Positions 2,221 to 20,010 of a stretch of 20,010 nt of DNA are shown piece by piece (within the stretch, counting starts at the first letter, position 1; the number at the start of each line of letters is the position of its first letter). The notes beneath the pieces are model-generated. The model was not told the DNA's origin. It saw nothing but the letters and a program-made list of their open reading frames with translations, and did not search any database. The translations under genes and the position numbers were made by a program. Location: positions 1-20,010 of the IMG/VR virus record IMGVR_UViG_3300044645_001638. One strand, given 5' to 3'. The stretch comes from a virus.

Positions 2221-2474
2221 TAGTTAGTTGGCCCGTTAACCATAACCACGACCACTCGCACCCAATCCCGCCAGTCTTGAAACCCCTCAGGCCCCGGTAT
2301 GCCGAACGAGTTAAACGTTGGCAGTAAGACCATCGCGTTAGCCACATCCCTCCAGTTTTCCTCGTCCACCTTGGGTAGGGGCTCCTGGCCGAAGTAGTGG
2401 AGCAGGTTACCGTTCCAGCCCTCCCAGGTCGCCTCCTCGGCGATGAAGGGTATGCTCTGCGTTATGGAGGGCAC
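2220..2474 (-). CDS. Conserved-looking phage protein of unknown function, 84 aa
   Basis: GTG start at 2474 overlaps the TAG stop of the upstream gene by one base (TAGTG). A GAGAGG Shine-Dalgarno six bases upstream supports this start. The protein is acidic and Trp-rich: W-x2-W near 17-20, then an ENWRDVANAMVLLP helix and a C-terminal FQDWRDWVRVVVVMVNG. Hydrophobic residues near the end look like an amphipathic helix or strand rather than a membrane span. I recognise the general type, a small acidic protein beside neck genes in marine podovirus contigs, but no named family. Location between the gp10-like hub and the GNAT-like gene suggests a minor virion or assembly role. Confidence 0.7.
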   Translation of the reverse strand: MPSITQSIPFIAEEATWEGWNGNLLHYFGQEPLPKVDEENWRDVANAMVLLPTFNSFGIPGPEGFQDWRDWVRVVVVMVNGPTN

Positions 2475-4555
2475 TAGGGCCTCTCGTCGCCCAGCTCGGC
2501 GGTGATAAGCACCCGGCCCATCTGGTAGGATCCGCCGGCTACGTTGGTTCCGAACTTGAGCCTGGTCTCCCGGTTCTCAATTCGCAGATCTACCTTGCCA
2601 GTGTCTGAGGTGAACGTGAACACCGGGGAGTTAACCTCCGTCGATTGCGCGAATGGCTTGCCTATAACCTCCAGCGTCATCTCACCGCTCTGAACAAAGT
2701 CCGGCTCTACACGTCTGAGGTGCAGGCGTCGGTTGATGCCCTTGAGCTCGTCCTGGGCGGGGTTACCGCCGACCCAGCTGATGTCGCACGTTGTGAAGTA
2801 CGCCGGGATCGCGGTCTGGCCTGTCGGCTCAACCCTGTCCGTTCCTATCTCGTGCTGCCACATCGCGTAGCCGCTAGTCGTCGGGAATACCGAGTCTCCA
2901 ACGCTCGGGTAAGGGCTGATAGCCTCGGTGACAGTGACGAGCGTTGAGTTTGACGCGGGGTCGTACACCACGGTGCTGATAAGGTACGAGGTGCCCGACG
3001 GTAGGTTTGTGAACTGTATGGTCTTGTTTGGCGAGTACTTGGGTGTCTGGTCGCCGTCCAGGTAGAACTGTGACGACGTCGGAGCCGGCTCGCCCGCGGG
3101 TGTGGCGATCGTAACGTCGGGCTGGCCCACGGTGAAGTCGTACTCCCAGCTGCACCATATGGGCGTTGGGAAAACCTCGGTCGTGTAACCGCAGCTCCTG
3201 TACGCGCCGGATGCTGACCCTGCGTCGTACCAGATCTTGTCCTTGACGTTGTAGATGATGGCGTCGTTGCACTCCGTGGATGTGCCTCGTGGATAAAAGA
3301 ACCAGATCTCATTAAAGCGGGGAACCTTGGTCGCCCAGACCTTTTGGCGCTGCGCGAAGTTCAGGTTGTCGTACACCCAGTTTAGGTTCTTATCGTTTGG
3401 CAACACCTGAACGGAGCCGTTGTACATGTAGAAACGGTCAACGCCCATCCAAAAGTAAACCCCGTCCATCTCAACGACTGCGTTGGATGACATGATTGAG
3501 ATCTGGCTAGAAATGATGTCGTACTTCCAGTACTGGTTCACGTCTCCGGTGAACGAGACACGTATCAAGCTGTCTGTCGCCCAGAACAATCCGGAGGGTG
3601 AATTGGTACCGCCACGGACCGGCATTCCCTTAACGATCTTACCCGCGGCCATGTTCACACGGTTGGCGAGTGGCCCGTTCCAGTTGTTCAAGCTCTGGTC
3701 CGCGTATATCGCGTCGACGTGATTGTTGGCGATAAGGCCATCAGATCCGTATATGAACAGGAACGGGTATAGCATCACGATTCCGCCGTCACAGGTCACC
3801 GGTGCGAATGTTGGGTTGTTTCCGGCGGTGTCCGCGAGCCCGTAAAAATTCCATGTTGCACCGGTGGGTAGTATGTCCCCAACGAGGACCTGCGTCGGGT
3901 TGTCCTCTACGATGTTTACAAGGTTCTGACCTGGGTGGGCGATCACCTTCATGCTCCCGCCCTGGGAGTCGTACTGCATGTCAAACTGCCACAGGTTCGC
4001 GGGGTTAGGGTCAAACTCTACGTTCGCGATCCACACCGTCGTTTGAGACGCGGGGATACTGGTTGGCGTTACGGTGACCGTAGTATTACCCGCCGAGAAC
4101 ACAGAACCAGACACGGTGTACTGGGTTGCGCCTGGTGTCTGGCTGAACACGACCTTTGTGCTAGCCGGAAACTTTGTTGTAAGGTCCCCCGTCACAACAA
4201 AGGTTGAACTTGTGTTAGATGTCACCGTTGTTTCGGCGTAGCCAACATTTATAACGGCCTTGCTGGGGCCTGTGCCCGCCGCGAATGATAGGCTCGTCGT
4301 GAACGCGTCGATTGTCTCCTCGGTGCCGGTGAATATAAAGTTCTGCCCGTTGTACGCGTTCGCTATGATGCCACGGGCGATCCCGTACTTGTCCAAGAAC
4401 ATGCGCGAGTAACCGCCGATCTTGCGCGGCGTACCACGCTGGAAACGGTTCCATAGCGCGTCCGTGCACTCGCGAGACTCAAACACCGTGCCGTCTCGTT
4501 TAACCCCGGGCGCAAGCCCGAGCGTGTAAACAACCGAGAGATTCTCGTCCGCCAT
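2474..4555 (-). CDS. P22 gp10-like tail hub / DNA-stabilisation protein, 693 aa
   Basis: ATG at 4555 lies in TAATG, overlapping the preceding stop by one base. Residues 1-90 and 185-480 resemble the phage stabilisation family (P22 gp10), a beta-propeller-like ring that closes the portal-tail channel. Typical features are the N-terminal NRFQRGTPRKIGGYSRM, repeated blades such as GLFWATDSLIRVSF, DGVYFWMGVDRFYMYNG and PRFNEIWFFYPRG, and an I-x-YNVKDKIWY blade. The protein is longer than P22 gp10 (about 470 aa). The excess is explained by two inserted, mutually similar beta modules (118-165 and 496-560) and a C-terminal extension to 693. The order adaptor-fibre-gp10-like-ejection candidate matches P22-type neck clusters. 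The hub assignment is by motif and context; the function of the inserted modules is unknown. Confidence 0.75.
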   Translation of the reverse strand: MADENLSVVYTLGLAPGVKRDGTVFESRECTDALWNRFQRGTPRKIGGYSRMFLDKYGIARGIIANAYNGQNFIFTGTEETIDAFTTSLSFAAGTGPSKAVINVGYAETTVTSNTSSTFVVTGDLTTKFPASTKVVFSQTPGATQYTVSGSVFSAGNTTVTVTPTSIPASQTTVWIANVEFDPNPANLWQFDMQYDSQGGSMKVIAHPGQNLVNIVEDNPTQVLVGDILPTGATWNFYGLADTAGNNPTFAPVTCDGGIVMLYPFLFIYGSDGLIANNHVDAIYADQSLNNWNGPLANRVNMAAGKIVKGMPVRGGTNSPSGLFWATDSLIRVSFTGDVNQYWKYDIISSQISIMSSNAVVEMDGVYFWMGVDRFYMYNGSVQVLPNDKNLNWVYDNLNFAQRQKVWATKVPRFNEIWFFYPRGTSTECNDAIIYNVKDKIWYDAGSASGAYRSCGYTTEVFPTPIWCSWEYDFTVGQPDVTIATPAGEPAPTSSQFYLDGDQTPKYSPNKTIQFTNLPSGTSYLISTVVYDPASNSTLVTVTEAISPYPSVGDSVFPTTSGYAMWQHEIGTDRVEPTGQTAIPAYFTTCDISWVGGNPAQDELKGINRRLHLRRVEPDFVQSGEMTLEVIGKPFAQSTEVNSPVFTFTSDTGKVDLRIENRETRLKFGTNVAGGSYQMGRVLITAELGDERP

Positions 4556-5823
4556 TAGAACGTACCGCCGCTGATAAGGCCTGCCTTAACCTCACCCGTG
4601 AACGTTGTCTTTGGAGCCAATGGATTTGTATTGTCTACGACCATCATGTCCGTGCTACCCGCGGAGATTGCTGGCCTGCTAGTCGCCTTGAGGTACATGC
4701 CGGTGTTCGTGTCGTTTGAGAACGAGAAGGACGGTGCCGCGGTCGTACCGTTCACCGCGTAGTAGATGTAGATCCAGGCCTGTGTTAGCAGGAACGCGTT
4801 CGACCCGCTCGTGAGAATGATCGCCGACGATCCGTTGGCTATCGAGATCGCCGGCAGGGAGGTTCCAGTAACCTCTACGTTGATGTCGTACCCCGCCTGC
4901 CCCGTCTGGTTGCTGACGATGTACATCTGCGTGATCGCGGGCAGGACAACGTCCAGGTCAACGGTGCGGGTGCCCGACAGCGCGATGTACGTCTGGATGG
5001 TTGGCGCGTACGTTGTCAGATCCAGGGTATTGCCCACGATGCTGTCGACGTCGTACGTCGCCGCCGTGAAGGATACGTCTACCTGCCTTGGGAGGCCGAC
5101 GGTGAAGAAGTTACCCGTGGCGAAGTCCATGATCACAACCGCGGAGTCCGAGGGGAACATGCTCAGGCTTGAGAGTCCGTTGATCGTCTTTGTCGCGGGG
5201 GGTGTTATAACCACAGACCCCGTGCCGCTGTTTCGAATGTTAACGAACCATCCGGTGTTCGCCGTTGCGGTGCTCGGCAGCGTGATCGTGCCAGCCCCAC
5301 CAGTCCACACGTACGTCGCGGATCGGTTGTTCTCCGTTAGCGTGACGTTAATGGCTGTTTCTATTACCTGCGAGCCGGTAGCCAATCGGCCGAGGATGTC
5401 AACCAGTCCGTTGCCCACCAGTGTCGCTGCGTCGGCTGCAGATGTCCCCGCGCCGAATGTTACGTTCTCGTAGGTTCCGGCCTCGGTTGAGTTGTCTGAG
5501 AGGTACACGTAGCGTGACTCGCCCGCCAGGATCTCAATGGCCTGAAAGCCGTCGATGTCCTCGACGAAGAAGCTGTCAGCTCCCAGGTTACGGAAGAGAA
5601 TATCCGTTCCGGTAGATCCCTGGTTACCCGGGGGCAACGTGACAACCCATCCGTCTGTGTCCGGCGTGCAGTCCATGATCCTCGCGGCCGCGACGGTGCC
5701 ATCACCCGGCACGGTGTACGAGGGCCATGATAGCGTTACGTTAGACTCGATCGCTAGCGCGGTGTAGCTTACGTCTGTGGGTTGAACTACGGTCCCAGTA
5801 AACGGCGATGTAAATGTGGGCAT
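4555..5823 (-). CDS. Beta-repeat head/tail fibre-like structural protein, 422 aa
   Basis: ATG at 5823 follows AGGAG by eight bases and overlaps the upstream stop as TAATG. The protein is Thr/Ser/Gly-rich with almost no Cys and very few Lys. It contains three divergent copies of one beta module at roughly 59-122, 178-243 and 285-350: a TLP-type opening, an (I/L)-x-R/S-N-x-G/T strand, then a Ser/Gly turn and a V/I-rich strand. Near the C-terminus PSFSFSNDTNTGMY (364-377) is a motif I associate with phage fibres just before the tip. It lies between the second adaptor and the gp10-like hub, so a fibre or decoration attached at the neck is plausible. No enzymatic domain is seen. Naming as a fibre is by composition, repeats and C-terminal motif. 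Confidence 0.65.
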   Translation of the reverse strand: MPTFTSPFTGTVVQPTDVSYTALAIESNVTLSWPSYTVPGDGTVAAARIMDCTPDTDGWVVTLPPGNQGSTGTDILFRNLGADSFFVEDIDGFQAIEILAGESRYVYLSDNSTEAGTYENVTFGAGTSAADAATLVGNGLVDILGRLATGSQVIETAINVTLTENNRSATYVWTGGAGTITLPSTATANTGWFVNIRNSGTGSVVITPPATKTINGLSSLSMFPSDSAVVIMDFATGNFFTVGLPRQVDVSFTAATYDVDSIVGNTLDLTTYAPTIQTYIALSGTRTVDLDVVLPAITQMYIVSNQTGQAGYDINVEVTGTSLPAISIANGSSAIILTSGSNAFLLTQAWIYIYYAVNGTTAAPSFSFSNDTNTGMYLKATSRPAISAGSTDMMVVDNTNPLAPKTTFTGEVKAGLISGGTF

Positions 5824-6449
5824 TATTGTGGCTCCTGAACGGATGTGTTCCTGTCGACCCTACGGGCCGCGTCTTCTTTTGTTAGCGCGCTCATTGAGTT
5901 GTTGTAGAGCTGCGTCCAGATCTGTAGCTTGTCCGGGCTCTTCAAATAAGGCTGTGCCTGTAGCAGCGAACCAAACAAAAGAGCCTGCGGCGCCTCGCGC
6001 GTGATCAGATTCTCCTGGTTGTCGTCCGCAAGTGGTTGCACCCGGTTGTAATAAATAATCTCCACCGCGTATTCATCGTCTGGCACCGGCGCGAATGCCC
6101 AGTGGTTGTAGTCGTAGTCCGAGTAGTACTTGGGCTGTGCGCTTGGTAGTTCGTTCTGGGCCTGCGCGACATAGTCCTGCCCTCGCAAGAGAACTGGCTG
6201 GCCGTTGATCTTCATCGAGACCGTCTTCCTCCAGCGCGCCGGCTTCTCCAGGGTAGCACCCTGAGAGCCCGACAAGAGCGTTGTCTCCACGACAACCAAC
6301 TCCCAGAGCGCCTTCACCTGCGCGGCGATCTCCTGCTCGGCTAGCATGATCATGCGAGGGATCTGCTCCACGAATGACTGATCGTCTCGCTCGGAGTACC
6401 TGATGATGTCCTGTATTAGTGTGTCGTATGTCAACACTGGTGCTGGCAT
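5823..6449 (-). CDS. Phage adaptor protein, SU10-type, 208 aa
   Basis: Start chosen at ATG 6449, two bases after the upstream stop, because GAGG sits five bases before it. An in-frame ATG at 6533 would add 28 low-complexity residues inside the previous gene and has no support. N-terminal helices (TYDTLIQDIIRYSERDDQSF, then PRMIMLAEQEIAAQVKAL) are followed by a beta region with W-x-FAPVPDDEYAVEIIYY and a C-terminal helical part containing APQALLFGSLLQAQPYL. This layout fits the SU10-like adaptor family of podoviruses, which forms a ring below the portal. It overlaps the fibre gene by one base. The family name is recognised by motif only. Confidence 0.7.
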   Translation of the reverse strand: MPAPVLTYDTLIQDIIRYSERDDQSFVEQIPRMIMLAEQEIAAQVKALWELVVVETTLLSGSQGATLEKPARWRKTVSMKINGQPVLLRGQDYVAQAQNELPSAQPKYYSDYDYNHWAFAPVPDDEYAVEIIYYNRVQPLADDNQENLITREAPQALLFGSLLQAQPYLKSPDKLQIWTQLYNNSMSALTKEDAARRVDRNTSVQEPQ

Positions 6450-6451
6450 GA

Positions 6452-7507
6452 TTACCTCGTGTAGTAGGATACGTTGGGCGTCAGCATAACCGGGGACTTG
6501 TCTCTCTCCTCGGCCTCCGCCTGCGCCAGCCAATAGTTAGCCTGCCCGTCCAGGTACTGTATGCGCGCCATGTCAATGCCCGGCAGCTGCAGGGACATCT
6601 GGTGCGACAGCAACTTTTGAACCGCGGCTATCCAGCGGTTGGGTAGGTAGAGCTCGTTTGAGAGGTCTCCGACGTCCTGTATCTGCTTCTCGATGACGAG
6701 CTGGAACACCTGGAAGTCGTTGTTCGGGATAGGCCACAAATACATCTGCGGGTTGATCTGACGATCCATCCAGTACTGTAGCGATCGGTCGCTCTCAAAT
6801 TGCTTGTTAGGTAAATTCCAGTAGTCGTCGCGGTTTAGACGCGCGAGTGGGATGTCCTGCTGCGTGTACGAGAACGACAGAGCCCTCAGCGAGAACGTTG
6901 TCGCGCCGGTGTTGCGGAGCCTGAAGTTGTAGTGGCCGGGGCTTGGCTCGACAGGGAAGTAGTACCACTCCCTGTCCGCTAGCGTGACCGTTGGTAGCGT
7001 GTAACGCAGCGTCCAGGTCACACCGTCCTCGCTCGTCTCGTAGACCAGGTTAAGCGTCTGCGCCCCGTACGAGTTAAAGCCCACCTGGAATATCCGCTGC
7101 TGGTTGCCGTAGTTGGCGCCGAACCAGTTGTTCAGGAGTGTCGACGTCCCGAACGTGTCCAGGTTGTTGTCGAACAGCGCGGGAGCTGTCGCGTTGGACG
7201 CGGGCAGGGCGCCTGAGATTTGTGGCGTGATGATGTACCGCCAGTTGGCCTCGCGAACGTCGACCGTTCCCTGTGGCAGGTTTATGATCGTCTGGTTCTT
7301 GATCGTGCCGGAAATGTAGTTCTCCAGCATCCACAGGTTAACGCCGCGGTTTGAGAGGTTCTGCAGGATGTAGAAGAGCGCGAGCTTGCCCGCGTCGATG
7401 TACTCCGGCGTCTGCTCCTCCGCCGCCTTCCCAGCCTCACGGAAGGCGAACTCGATCATCTGGGCGACGTTTACCTTGGTCTGGTTTGTGGTGCCCGAGT
7501 ATGCCAT
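6452..7507 (-). CDS. Tail adaptor / gp4-like neck protein with inserted discoidin-like domain, 351 aa
   Basis: ATG at 7507 is three bases after the upstream TAA, with GGGAG and AAGAG purine tracts before it. Residues 1-85 are helical (VAQMIEFAFREAGKAAEEQT, then KLALFYILQNLSNRG) and, with 218-351 (YWNLPNKQ, MYLWPIPNNDF, LPNRWIAAVQKLLSHQMS, YLDGQANYWLAQAEAEERD), form a split neck-adaptor domain of the kind seen in gp4-like tail accessory proteins. Between them, residues 97-214 read as an F5/8 type C (discoidin/CBM32) beta-sandwich: an ALFDNNLDTFG opening, YETSEDGVTWTL (the usual S-x-DG-x-xW strand) and a closing YNFRLRNTGA...FSLRALSFS. Such domains usually bind sugars or lipids. The gene is directly followed by the second adaptor. 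The adaptor name is an inference from motifs and position. Confidence 0.65.
   Translation of the reverse strand: MAYSGTTNQTKVNVAQMIEFAFREAGKAAEEQTPEYIDAGKLALFYILQNLSNRGVNLWMLENYISGTIKNQTIINLPQGTVDVREANWRYIITPQISGALPASNATAPALFDNNLDTFGTSTLLNNWFGANYGNQQRIFQVGFNSYGAQTLNLVYETSEDGVTWTLRYTLPTVTLADREWYYFPVEPSPGHYNFRLRNTGATTFSLRALSFSYTQQDIPLARLNRDDYWNLPNKQFESDRSLQYWMDRQINPQMYLWPIPNNDFQVFQLVIEKQIQDVGDLSNELYLPNRWIAAVQKLLSHQMSLQLPGIDMARIQYLDGQANYWLAQAEAEERDKSPVMLTPNVSYYTR
6455..6458 (-). promoter_or_regulatory. Ribosome binding site fixing the start of the SU10-type adaptor
   Basis: GAGG on the minus strand, five bases before ATG 6449 and just before the TAA of the preceding gene. It favours the short 208-aa product over the 236-aa frame extension. 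Confidence 0.7.
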
Positions 7508-9935: not shown

Positions 9936-12274
<2,339 letters not shown>

Positions 12275-12815: not shown

Positions 12816-15800
12816 TCAGAATGCCCTTGAGTACTTGAATGGGAACGCCGCGAAGGCTATGTAAACATACGTGGATCCGCTTTGGTTCCAGTCTACTTCG
12901 GTTCCTCGTATCTTAAACCCGTTTGACAAGAAGTCTGCGAATAGAAGAGCTGCGGTTGTGCCTGATGCCTCCGCGTTAGCCAGGTTTGGTTGTAGCCGGA
13001 GATCTACCACGTTGTAGGTGTCTCTTGCGGAGTCAAAATGCTCCCAGTTTCTGGCTGTAGTAGAACACTTAACCAAAACATACGCGGGGCGGAAGTTCGT
13101 GTAGATCATGGGTCCGTCTGCCGAACCATTGCCCGTGTACGAGCCCATCGCGCTGAACCCGCTCACGGGCGCGAAGCAGTACGCCACATAGGTTGAGCCG
13201 CTGCCGTTTATGGTCGCGTTGTTTCCGATGTTGATCACGGTGGACGATGGCGCGCCGTTGTAAACGTCTGGCCTGCTAGTTGCCTGAGCGGCTGTATCAT
13301 TTAGAAGTACATAGGCGTTTGTTGGAAGACTTACGTGGTACGTCATCCAAGACCACGTGCCGTTTCTTTGCTTGATTGTTATGAAACTCGGAGCCACGCC
13401 CAGGCCATGACCCACCGTGGCGTTGGCCCCAGTCCCCGTGTACGTTACGATGGAGCAACCGTTGGTGGTGTTCGCGCTGACCGTTGAGGGTATGGTGCCG
13501 TCCGTGTTAGCCACGCCCGTGCTGCCACCGCCGCGCCAGGCCCAGCCAACGTATGTCGCGGTGTTGGTGTTTGTTCTGGCTGATGTGTACGTTGTGTTGA
13601 AGCCCACGCTGAACCCGCCCGAGTCGAATGAGTTCAGAACGTTGGTGACGGTGGCCTCTGCCGTGGTTGAGTTTGAGTATATTAGCTTGTTCGGGCCTCG
13701 CAGGCTGTCGCACAACACGTTCCACTCAGTTCCTGAGCTCCTGGACTTGATCCAGGTGAAGTCCGGTGTGAAGCCCTGCCCTGGGAGAAGAACGGACTGT
13801 GTGGTTCCGTTGCCGGTGTACGTCGCAATGTCAAAGTAGTTGTCCGCCTGTGTCGTGCTCGTCGCGCCGATGCCGTTCACGGTGGGCAGGTTCGTTGAGA
13901 CCAGGCACTTGAACCCGGCCGGGGCGGTGTACGAGAACGCGCGCTGTCCGAAGTTGAAGTCGCCTTGGATGCCTGCCGATATACGAGCCAGTGGGAAGTA
14001 CGTTCCAGTTAATCCGGAGAACGCCACGCCCTGTGACACTCCGTTTTTGTAGAACGTTATGGTGCCGGCGTCCATGTCAAGCGCCACCCCAATAACGTCG
14101 TTGGTTGTAAACGTCGCGCCATACGCTGATGGTGTTGCGCCGTCGTACTTATTGCCGTTGAAGTAGTAGCCCTTGACGCCTGTCAATCCTGTTGTTTGGG
14201 TTATGTCGGTCGTGACACCGGCCATTTGACCGTTCACCCCGATAATTGTCATGGTGTAATCCCAGTACCACTTTCCGGAAGACACGCCGAATGTGCCGTA
14301 CCTAGAGTTTCCAGACGCCGTTCCACCGGTTACTGTTAGGTTGCCGTTTGACAAGACAGCGTTTGTGTCGCCGCTAAGAGGGCTGAGCGTGGCGTAGTTC
14401 CCGCGTACCTGGCCTCCGACGCCGGTGTCCGTCCCATAGTCCGAGACCGTGTCCGTGAGGTTGTCGTTGCCAACGCCCGCGGTCACGGATATGTTCGCGG
14501 GTGTCCACTGCTGGAATCCCACGTCCTGCACGTTGTACGCGAACGCGGCCGCGGGTGGTGTGAACGCGCCCGAGTAGCGTCCCACCTTGCTCACGCGCAG
14601 GTCCTGGATGTACCCGATGAACGGGTACTGCGTCGGAGCGTATGTTCCGTTCGTGCCGACGTGCGTGATTGAGTTGCTTGAGAGCGTGTACGACGTGGTC
14701 GATGAGACGTCCAGAACGCCGTTTATGAAGAGCCTGCTCGTGGTCCCAACACGTGACACGGCGACGTGGTACCAGGTGTTGCTGCTGAGCGTGATCGTGC
14801 CAATCAATATGTCGGTGCTTGTCGTACCAAACCGCATCCTTGATGAGACTATTTGAAAGTCGAAGTTTGCGGCGCCTGAGACCGCTATCCGATTGGACAG
14901 CACCATCTGCTGGTTCGCGATTGATGTGGAGTAGATCCACGCCTCGATGGTGAAGTCGAAGGCGCCGAACTGGCAGGGCGCGTTGGTTGTCGGTATGACC
15001 AGGTAGTCGCCGCTCCCGTCAAAGTAAGCGCTTGTCTCGCCCCACTTCTTGACCGCGGTGCTGACCTGGGCGTTGCCCGCGGTCTCGATGTTGTTGATCC
15101 CGGTCGCGTCGTATATGCCGGCAGCGGTGAAGTTAGCCAAGAAGTTGGTGAGGAGTATGTTCGTCGGGGGAGCCACGGGAGGGGTGAAGTTTGCCGTGTA
15201 CAGGTTTCTTCCGATTAGCACGCGGAAGCCAGAGATGTACTTGCTGTACCCTATGCCAGGGGTTCCTCCGCTTTGTATGGCGTTTATGTAGTTGACCGTT
15301 CCCGCGTGCAGCGCGGAGGCGTTCGTGCCGCTGCCGATCTGTCTTCCATTTTGGAATACGCGTATGGCTCCGGATGTGCCGTCTCGGGTTACAGCTATGT
15401 GGTTCCAGGTACTTGGCGCGAAGCTTCCGATGTTCGTGATCTGGTTGGCCCACGAGCTCCCGTTGTTGCTAATGTAGACGCTAATCGTGCTCGCGGTGTC
15501 TCGTTGGAGTCGGAGCGCGGCGTAGCTAGCGGCCGAGTTTATGACATACAAAGGATCTACGGCGGTGAACGTGCTAAAGTAGAACCAGCCCTCGACGGTG
15601 AACGTGTTCGACCCGAGTTGCAAAGACGCGGAGTTGGCGATGGTGAGGTAGTCGCCGGTGCCGTCGAAGTACGCGGAGCCGCCCATGGTTGTAGCGTTGT
15701 ACGCGGACGATGGGTACGTCGGCGAGGATGGTACGAGGGAGCACGTTCCGTTTAGCGCTATCGCCCTGTTGTTGGAGGACAGGTCCATGACGTAGGGCGT

Positions 15801-18532
15801 GCGGAACGTGTCCAGCATCATCCCGCCGTTCTGGGTGAACGTCAGGTTCGCCATCTTGCCCAGAGCCCATGAGTTAAAGAGCGAGCCCGCCTGGTAGAAG
15901 AACCTCCCCAGCTCCATGGATGAGTGGGTCTGCGGCAGCGCTGTGACGGCGACCGAGCTCGCGACGGAGACGCCGTTCACGAAAAGGCTCAGGGACGTTC
16001 CGAGCTTTTGAAATTTAATCCTGTTCCAGCGCCCGGCTCCGATAGCGCCGTTTGCGGAGGTGATGGTGTTCTGCGTTGCGCCGACGCGAAAAGATCCTCC
16101 AATTGCGCCGTTTGTGTCAACTGCGAGGTTCCAGTACGTTGTGAACGACCCGAAGGTGAACAGAGACTGAGACGTGATGGAGCTGCTTTGTGAGTGGTCC
16201 GCGATGTCGTCGCAGAAGTAGTCGAACTCAACTATGTCGTTCGTGGTGGAGGAGAACGTGACGGCCATCGTCGCGCTCACGTACGTGTTCTCGTTCACGC
16301 CGTTGAAGTACATGCCGTACCCGTTCGGCGGCGGGGTGGTGTAGTTGACGGGGCTGTTGAACGGGTTGTTGAGTGTGCCCGTGTATGAGTTTCCAACCGT
16401 TGTTATCGTGAACGCGTTCGGGCTGTTGTCCACGAACGTGCTCGACTGGCACGTGAGCAGTGAGGTGTTCGTGATCGCGGTCAGTGGCGCGGTCGGGGGT
16501 GTGAAAGTCGACGTGTAGAGCGCGGTGCCCTTTAAGATTCTAACGTTTGAAACGCAGCCGTTAAATGGTCTGTTTGTTCCGACGGTTCCTCCGGATCCGA
16601 TTGCTAAAGCAGCAGAACCGGCTGTTATTGTGACCGTTCGCGCTGTGCTTGTTTGTAATTGGCCGTTCAAAAACAAGTACAGCGTCGAGCCGGAGAGAAC
16701 AAACGCTACGTGGTACCACACGCCCGTGCTAAGATTTGTTGTGCCTGTTATGTTTTGTGATGTGCTGGTTGAGTTGCCAACAACGGCTAGGAGTACATTG
16801 CTCTGAACCGCCACCCCGTACTGTGGGAAAGTCACCCCCGAGTTCCAATCTTTTTGAACTATTATGGGGTCACCAGAGAAGCTGTTAGCGTTAAACCAAA
16901 ACTCAATAGTAAAATCGGTTGAGGTCAAGTTTAGCGCGGCGTTATTTGGAACGGTTATGCAGTCCCCCGTGCCGTCGAAGTAACCCGACCAGGCCGTCAT
17001 GCCGAACGGGTTCGCGGGGGTGGGCTGTGCGGTGCCGTTGACGGTGAGGGCGTGGTTGTTAGATGAGTTGTCGATGAACGAGCTGCTCTGGCAGGTCAGG
17101 AGTTGTGTGTTCGTGACCGCGGTCAAGGGCGTGGTTGGCACGGTAAATTTTGTGCCACCTGGGTATAAACAAGTGCCTGCAATTATGCGGGCATTAGAGA
17201 TATACCCGTTCATCTCAAACCCGCCGGTATCAAAACGACCGATTAAATATAAAGAAAATGAAGCTCCACTTGATCCGGTTCCTTGTTGGACTCCGTTGAC
17301 ATAAGCACGGCAAGTAGTCCCTTCTCTAACCCAAGCTAAATGGTGCCATTGGTTAAGAGTTACGGCGGTGCCACTTGGTAAAATAACTGCACCCCCATTA
17401 AGTGTCAGTCCTATTGATCCGGTTGTTGTGTTGTCTATGTAGAGCTGTTGATTACCAGCACCTGAAAACACGTTTGTATACCCACTGCCGTCTACGGCGG
17501 TCTTATAGACCCAGCATTCAACCGTAAAATTTCCAGAAAGTGTGGTGCCGCTCCATGATAAAGAATCCCCGGTGCCGTCAAACGTCCCGGAGTAGTAACC
17601 GTTCGTTTGCTCGGTGCCGCCGCCCAGGTAGAACGGGGATATGGTTCCCTGCGTGGTGTTTCCGTTTCGTGTTATTCCGATGCCGAACTGCGCCTGGTCC
17701 GAGAATGAGTTGTTCTGCTGCCCGTTCGTGTTCGTCGTGTTTATCAGGAGCGTGTTGTTCTTCCAGTAGCCGTCCTGGCCGGTTACCTTCTTGTTCTGGC
17801 CTAGGTCTACCGCGAGAGCGTTCGAGCTAAAGGGCATGTAGAAGCCGTTGGTTCCGTACGAGCCCGTGTAACCGGTTGAGATCGGAATCAGCTGCCCGGT
17901 GGTGGAGGATGTCTCTGTGAAGGACGCCGGGGTGAGAGCTTGTCCGTCGATCAGGTACACCTCGGCCATGTACCCGCCAAATTGGAACGTTGCGCTATTC
18001 GCGTACCTGCCGAGGTAGTGCTGAACGCCGGTGGTGTTAACGCTCGTGATCGTGGTTAGGTTGGCCGGTAGCGTGTTCGTAGAAAACGCTGTAACCCTGG
18101 TGCCGTTAACGAACAGACGCACACGGTCGGCCTGTGTGGCATTTAGAAGGTCAAACACAAGAACTATGTTGTACCACTGCGACGGATCTCTAAAAACCTG
18201 CGTGGTTATTAACTGAATGACAGTTGATGCTGCTACGTTGCTTGCGATTCGTATTGTGTCATTGGCCTGAAGCTCAAGAAATGTGTGGTTGTTGGTGTCT
18301 GTGTTCACACCAAAAACTATTTGCTGAGATCCAAGGAGGCTACGCTTGACCCACGCGCTGAACGTGAACGTTTGCCTACTCCCCGTTACCGTTGGAATGT
18401 AGCCGAAGTTGGGCGTGTCCGCCGGGTTGAAGCGCACGCTCCCGGGCGATGTGTAGGACGGCGCGGGCGCCGGGCCGAAGCCTGGCGACCCAACGCTCTG
18501 CGCTATGGTTCCACCGCTGGGGTATACCGGCA

Positions 18533-18533
<1 letters not shown>
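12816..18533 (-). CDS. Giant tail-fibre/adhesin: six LamG-like modules, SPRY, three C-terminal repeats, 1905 aa
   Basis: ATG at 18533 lies in TAATG with the previous fibre gene. Six concanavalin/LamG-type beta-sandwiches lie at about 30-215, 310-470, 515-690, 735-915, 950-1120 and 1165-1330. Each shows some of the pattern FDGTGD...FT(V/I)E.W, then W(Y/H)H(V/I)A and an L(F/Y)(V/L)NG strand, ending in a (G/S)x(V/I)xNxR(I/V) strand. Linkers such as LTAVTNTQLLTCQSS (471-485) and LTAITNTSLLTCQSS (684-698) repeat. Residues 1395-1550 read as a SPRY domain (GKWYWDYTM, FTTNDVIGVALDMDAGTITF, KNGVSQG, FNFGQRAF). Three divergent C-terminal repeats follow at 1565-1670, 1690-1792 and 1795-1900: YTG(N/T)G..., then F-x-P-x-(F/Y)-x-x-(I/V)-K, and a YV(G/A/Y)-x-(A/C) end. 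No signal peptide or protease motif. Likely a receptor-binding fibre contacting glycans. Confidence 0.8.
16463..17603 (-). other. Low-GC LamG modules with GC-rich linker (compositional mosaic)
   Basis: Covers LamG modules 2 and 3 of the giant fibre. Hand counts give about 46% GC for 17161-17580 and 48% for 16621-16920, against about 61% for the linker between them (16981-17160) and 62% for 17581-17640. The low-GC parts use A/T-ending codons unlike their neighbours. Confidence 0.7.

Positions 18534-20010
<1,477 letters not shown>

Follow-up and report, generated by a model that had tools for sequence, protein, structure and literature searches.

Among podovirus neck proteins, the adaptors of cyanophage A4 (9k09 chain d), LME-1 (9efk), Carin1 (8ck1), KHP30 (7wmp), and SU10 (gp11) combine a helix bundle with a beta dock, a plan shared by the protein described here. 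The chains of these adaptors, at 193-250 aa, are however too short to hold both this core and a discoidin domain. The beta-rich part of the adaptor acts as the fibre dock in SU10, T7, KP32, and P-SCSP1u, and the adaptor ring has 12 subunits in SU10 and P-SCSP1u (PMC9509320, PMC10575957).

Tails, baseplates, capsid turrets, and siphophage collars are already known to carry accessory sugar-binding modules. In the lactococcal 936 phages, CBMs of the neck passage structure bound host cells weakly (PMC6669499), and for the galactose-binding-like domain of the HFTV1 turret head protein, a role in the initial reversible contact with glycans has been proposed (PMC12494034). The podovirus adaptor ring is usually treated as a mere connector; here, one of its subunits is predicted to carry a spliced-in domain of the sugar-binding type. 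In the literature searched, whose coverage is incomplete, no account of a discoidin or galactose-binding domain inside a podovirus adaptor was found.

The adaptor locus and its neighbourhood

The window, meaning the whole stretch of 20,010 bases of a virus contig that was analysed, encodes on its minus strand a 351-aa adaptor with an inserted domain (Table 1). In the order of transcription, fibre-like genes, a holin (phrog_3427), and an M15 endolysin precede this adaptor, which is followed by a second, 208-aa adaptor, a 422-aa protein without clear family match, and a 693-aa virion structural protein. The latter is probably the nozzle, judging by gene order, and apparently has extra beta-rich stretches (approximately aa 90-185 and 500-570) compared with its phrog_3287 profile match. 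The pair formed by a window-type and an SU10-type adaptor is also present in HTVC023P, CRP-901, HTVC027P, Pag-Yong1, and RLK, so that phages of this group usually have two proteins of the adaptor fold. The longest reading frame of the second adaptor (5823-6533, minus strand) starts from a TTG at 6533 and overlaps the insert-bearing gene; its true start is probably the ATG at 6449, which abuts the stop codon of the first adaptor.

Other genes of the window, all on the minus strand, deserve mention. A 1905-aa fibre-like protein (12816-18533) matches the lectin-fold family Laminin_G_3 six times and has a SPRY domain, with DUF7483 at its C-terminus, giving this phage another and far larger stock of lectin-type folds. 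Collagen-like repeat proteins (PF01391) are encoded at 10089-11225 and at 18533-20008, the second running off the contig. Among the fibre genes lies a family-2-type glycosyltransferase with TPR repeats (11228-12274), whose targets might be proteins of the virion or the host surface. The product of 2-1687, whose large N-terminus is rich in Lys, Ser, and Val and whose long EPEPEL repeat runs off the contig, is possibly an internal virion (ejection) protein.

Table 1. Features of the adaptor locus in window coordinates
Feature	Position	Strand	Basis
Neck (head-tail) adaptor with inserted discoidin-fold domain (predicted)	6452..7507	-	ORF; phrog_12985 E 2.2e-6; AF2 pLDDT 86.9
N-terminal part of the adaptor core, aa 1-91, with two helices and the initial dock strands	7235..7507	-	AF2 secondary structure; alignment with insert-less adaptors
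Inserted discoidin/CBM32-fold domain (predicted), aa 92-215	6863..7234	-	VIA-align Z up to 15.7; insert profile vs PDB; F5_F8_type_C
S-E-D-G-V-T-W motif of F5/8C domains, aa 159-165	7013..7033	-	sequence; conservation
D-N-N-L-D-T, aa 113-118, counterpart of the F5/8C DGNxxT stretch	7154..7171	-	alignments
Adaptor core, C-terminal part, aa 216-351: remaining dock sheet, two helices, extended C-terminus	6455..6862	-	AF2; phrog_12985 match aa 216-301
Second adaptor-fold protein, SU10-type without insert, 208 aa, directly downstream	5823..6449	-	PF24175 SU10_adaptor E 5.1e-23; SU10 adaptor 7z47 E 5.6e-6
Nozzle/stabilisation-type virion protein, 693 aa, probable next tail component	2474..4555	-	phrog_3287 virion structural protein E 1.1e-20

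Fold of the host protein and of the inserted domain

The structural assignment relies on an AF2 model of the window protein, built on an alignment of 88 rows from virus contigs, from which both the adaptor match and the insert match are derived. The mean pLDDT is 86.9 for the whole protein and 93-95 over the insert. The flanks of the insert align with the cyanophage A4 adaptor (9k09_d) at Z 13.5 over 199 of 216 residues (VIA-align, model range 9-343). The core helices span aa 14-24, 34-53, 290-307, and 313-333, and a single chain combines helix bundle and beta dock, matching solved podovirus adaptors of the T7 gp11/SU10 gp11 type. The model of a relative with a shortened insert also matches the tail chains of LME-1, Carin1, and KHP30.

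At the sequence level, phrog_12985 is matched by the window protein and by 86 of the 88 members, and PF24175 (SU10_adaptor) by 40 of 88 aligned relatives (best 1.8e-11), the window protein itself not being among them. Searches of Pfam and NCBIfam with the window protein alone gave no adaptor match, and an insert-less profile recovered no adaptor from the PDB. The preliminary description, which spoke of a sugar-binding domain splitting an otherwise recognisable neck adaptor, was thus right about the adaptor by structure and through the relatives, and not by what Pfam makes of this sequence alone. On the predicted model, a discoidin domain splits the window protein, a head-tail adaptor of podovirus type, which also supports the neck location claimed for this domain.

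The model likewise confirms aa 92-215 as a domain of predicted discoidin/CBM32 fold. This region aligns with the CBM32 of AlyQ (7d2a_A) at Z 15.7 over 122 residues and 2.3 A (Foldseek and VIA-align); CBM32 and CBM62 structures match it at Z 14-15.7, and the jelly-roll beta-sandwich match to solved discoidin members spans the whole inserted domain (VIA-align on the AF2 model). BFVD contains a predicted structure of the same build (A0A6J5RSL2, TM 0.89). The fold search returned discoidin rather than an unrelated fold. The domain had been placed at aa 97-214 (6866-7219), where it does lie, within slightly larger boundaries (Table 1). The proposed S-x-DG-x-x-W strand was borne out as well: S159-E-D161-G162-V-T-W165 fits it, and in 69 relatives with the full insert D161 and W165 never vary and S159 and G162 are conserved to at least 95%.

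Profile comparisons point in the same direction. The Pfam family F5_F8_type_C is matched by 34 of the 88 aligned members at a threshold of E<=0.1 (best 6.3e-6). Given by itself, the window insert scores 13.2 bits (E 0.1), a level that the window protein reaches in Pfam in this trimmed form only, and stays below the curated cut-off of PF00754 (28.2 bits), for which reason it is classed by fold and not as a Pfam member. An insert-only profile run against the PDB retrieved chitobiase F5/8C, CBM32, factor VIII C2, and lactadherin (best chain E 0.0017), and a PDB sequence search with the window protein gave a chance match only. On the full-insert profile, shuffled inserts reach at most 10.1 bits, and reduced inserts, left out of its building, score 20-43 bits. 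With tblastn, the insert alone had its sole convincing match among phage records in the MW202545 adaptor (E 2e-11); the other records, mostly Vibrio phage fibres, were at chance level (E 3 or worse) and were rejected. An assignment of the conserved insert residues to the apical or basal face by strand order was dropped, as simple alternation contradicts the known CBM32 geometry.

Insertion history and reuse of the site

The insertion is real and widespread, and public virus contigs contain this adaptor family in abundance. Insert-less homologues of 220-231 aa include those of the cultured phages HTVC023P (gp54, 231 aa) and CRP-901 (gp54, 226 aa) as well as DSL-LC04, ct2G2228, and ct7L0027; in these relatives and in many virus contigs, a loop of 12-15 residues replaces the discoidin domain. 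The insertion proposed earlier is clean, falling between two dock strands, and the region is not constant across the adaptor family. In a tree of the core only, with the insert columns removed, all discoidin carriers form one clade (support 100/98); one partial, divergent row (L033) is placed elsewhere within this clade with weak support. Clades A and B of the carriers hold the full domain, and clade C, which includes Caulobacter phage RLK, holds a form about 25 residues shorter that lacks the DxNxxT stretch. The shortened insert is still predicted to be a discoidin sandwich, the model of one such relative (L119) matching CBM62 at Z 13.7 over 98 residues. The carrier clade is deep, with hundreds of loci keeping the domain, and none of the 227 carrier-clade ORFs measured is missing it, in a sampling that favours full-length matches. 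Most simply, the common ancestor of a large phage clade would have gained a 124-residue discoidin-fold domain a single time, at the hairpin between two strands of the beta-rich fibre-dock part of the adaptor.

In approximately 59 marine-type contigs near HTVC023P, here called the L360 type (L360:1539-2447, L454-L512, HTVC023P-like phages), an unrelated domain some 75 residues long occupies this loop, at the exact discoidin site. This domain (..TSVVLTDATGFASSGTIQIGLEFITYTGK..LTGATRGARGS..AHAAGV..) has no score against the discoidin profile. It is similar to segments found in other structural proteins of phages, including the "tail tube B" of Skadi phages. In the core-only tree, the L360-type lineage is nested inside insert-less pelagiphage adaptors. 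The presence of an unrelated domain at this loop in a marine sister lineage makes the loop a reusable insertion site. HTVC027P gp64 (L371:4001-4939) has a similar TG/RG-like domain, which was rejected as a same-site case because it sits one hairpin earlier, and the N-terminus of the 023Pt_psg01 adaptor (L372:1129-2226) is extended by about 135 aa. Together with the L360 type, these variants show that the adaptor family repeatedly takes up small domains at apparently exposed edges.

Constraint, ligand site, and proposed roles

In clade A, mean identity is 0.55 for the insert and 0.74 for the core, and the insert is the less conserved of the two in 99% of pairs (84% in clade B). Among close relatives, dN/dS is 0.10 for the insert, with no sign of diversifying selection, and 0.07 and 0.04 for the two core parts, these ratios being approximate because dS values are high. 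The insert is a peripheral, moderately constrained domain under purifying selection, without signs of an arms race.

The galactose-type site of CBM32 (as in the CpGH84C CBM32) comprises Trp/His after DGNxxT and an Arg in a later loop. In the 69 full inserts, positions 120/121 are never W or H, and no Arg is found among the residues listed at 147-149. As clade C lacks the DxNxxT stretch, there is no ligand site common to the whole clade. CBM32 sites are diverse, so the missing galactose-site residues are compatible with another ligand. Discoidin folds also serve as protein-protein modules, such as APC10/DOC1 and IFT25, both of which the structural comparison matched to the insert. Sugar binding, as proposed in the preliminary description, stays plausible but is not directly supported, given the absent Trp/His/Arg counterparts, the reduced clade C, and the dN/dS of 0.10.

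The window protein would belong, as a subunit, to the ring of neck adaptors in an uncultured short-tailed phage. Two long strands (aa 81-93 and 206-220) are predicted to connect the domain to the core, which suggests a rigid attachment with the domain pointing outwards all around the neck; we infer about 12 copies per ring, this outward position, and adhesion alike. The domain may well be an accessory display module, a reading that we hold tentatively and short of calling it probable: a solvent-exposed sandwich would make weak multivalent contacts to the cell surface or to glycans in the surroundings, aiding adsorption without deciding it. That unrelated domains are interchangeable at one loop agrees with a display site that is exposed and tolerant, the faster divergence of the insert relative to the core is expected of a peripheral domain, and the neck CBMs of 936 phages and the HFTV1 turret serve as precedents. 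Against it speak the unconserved galactose-type positions, the loss of DxNxxT in clade C, and the lack of diversifying selection, and a domain absent from none of the 227 carriers fits an integral part better than an optional adhesin. A bolder extension, rather speculative and on balance doubtful, takes the fibre-dock hairpin as a general socket for small beta domains (discoidin, shortened discoidin, TG/RG-rich domain, or none), with 12 discoidin copies forming an active glycan-binding collar in the window's clade. If true, the podovirus neck itself would be an adhesion organ.

Since the insertion falls in the part that docks fibres in T7, SU10, and P-SCSP1u, contact with a fibre or collar is a serious rival, possible though somewhat less plausible than display. 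Here, the discoidin domain would enlarge the dock and bind a phage protein (the tail fibre N-terminus, a collar protein, the second adaptor, or the capsid) instead of sugar. The insertion in the beta-rich fibre-dock part (as placed by strand order), the matches to APC10 and IFT25 as discoidin folds of protein complexes, the fixation of the domain in the carrier clade as sampled, purifying selection, and the survival of a shortened form without DxNxxT all agree with this. With a specific dock, however, one would hardly expect a sister lineage to have an unrelated domain at this loop and other lineages to have none, and insert-less relatives evidently attach fibres without it. The domain is unlikely to be a mere passenger or purely structural spacer, in which case the permissive loop would simply tolerate an exposed fold that contributes little or nothing to neck stability: its dN/dS above that of the core (0.10 versus 0.04-0.07), its lower identity, the tolerance of the site for unrelated domains, and the decayed motif stretch of one clade would suit such a passenger, but purifying selection is still strong, structural residues are conserved, and the domain is kept across a deep clade and hundreds of loci. 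Finally, the low score of the window protein alone against F5_F8_type_C (only E 0.1) could suggest an ordinary variable region of the adaptor family with no inserted domain at all; this is highly improbable, being refuted by the confident discoidin model at Z 15.7, the Pfam match in 34 of 88 relatives, and the adaptors without the region.

Compared with known systems, the window insert has the fold and the S-x-DG-x-x-W strand in common with CBM32/F5/8 type C domains (AlyQ CBM32, 7d2a; CpGH84C CBM32, 2j1a). Unlike CBM32, it lacks the galactose-site Trp/His, does not reach the Pfam cut-off, and sits in a virion neck protein. The 936 phages, with "evolved" Dit/MTP and neck CBMs, have likewise added carbohydrate-type modules to neck and tail proteins as accessory adhesins, the modules named being BppA-like or of other CBM types (PMC6669499). 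These are, however, siphophages of a Gram-positive host, whose module lies at the collar-fibre end or in Dit/MTP and not in a podovirus adaptor ring. HFTV1 also differs from the window phage, being an archaeal virus with its domain on a capsid turret, beside a deacetylase-like domain.

Closer at hand, the adaptors of Pelagibacter phage HTVC023P (gp54), Roseobacter phage CRP-901 (gp54), phage DSL-LC04, and Planktothrix phage Pag-Yong1 are homologous to the core over its full length, with a loop of 12-15 residues and no discoidin; in HTVC023P, CRP-901, and Pag-Yong1, those tested, a second SU10-type adaptor gene comes next, as in the window. The Caulobacter phages RW, RLK, KcrB, and GB2A (RLK_gp076c, 328 aa) belong to the same clade and have a homologous domain at the same site, scoring 35 bits on the full-insert profile, in a version about 25 residues shorter than that of the window and without the DxNxxT stretch. 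With an abundant family, an insert traceable to one clade, and the shortened form in these cultured Caulobacter phages, the role of the neck domain, be it adhesion, fibre docking, or ornament, becomes directly testable.
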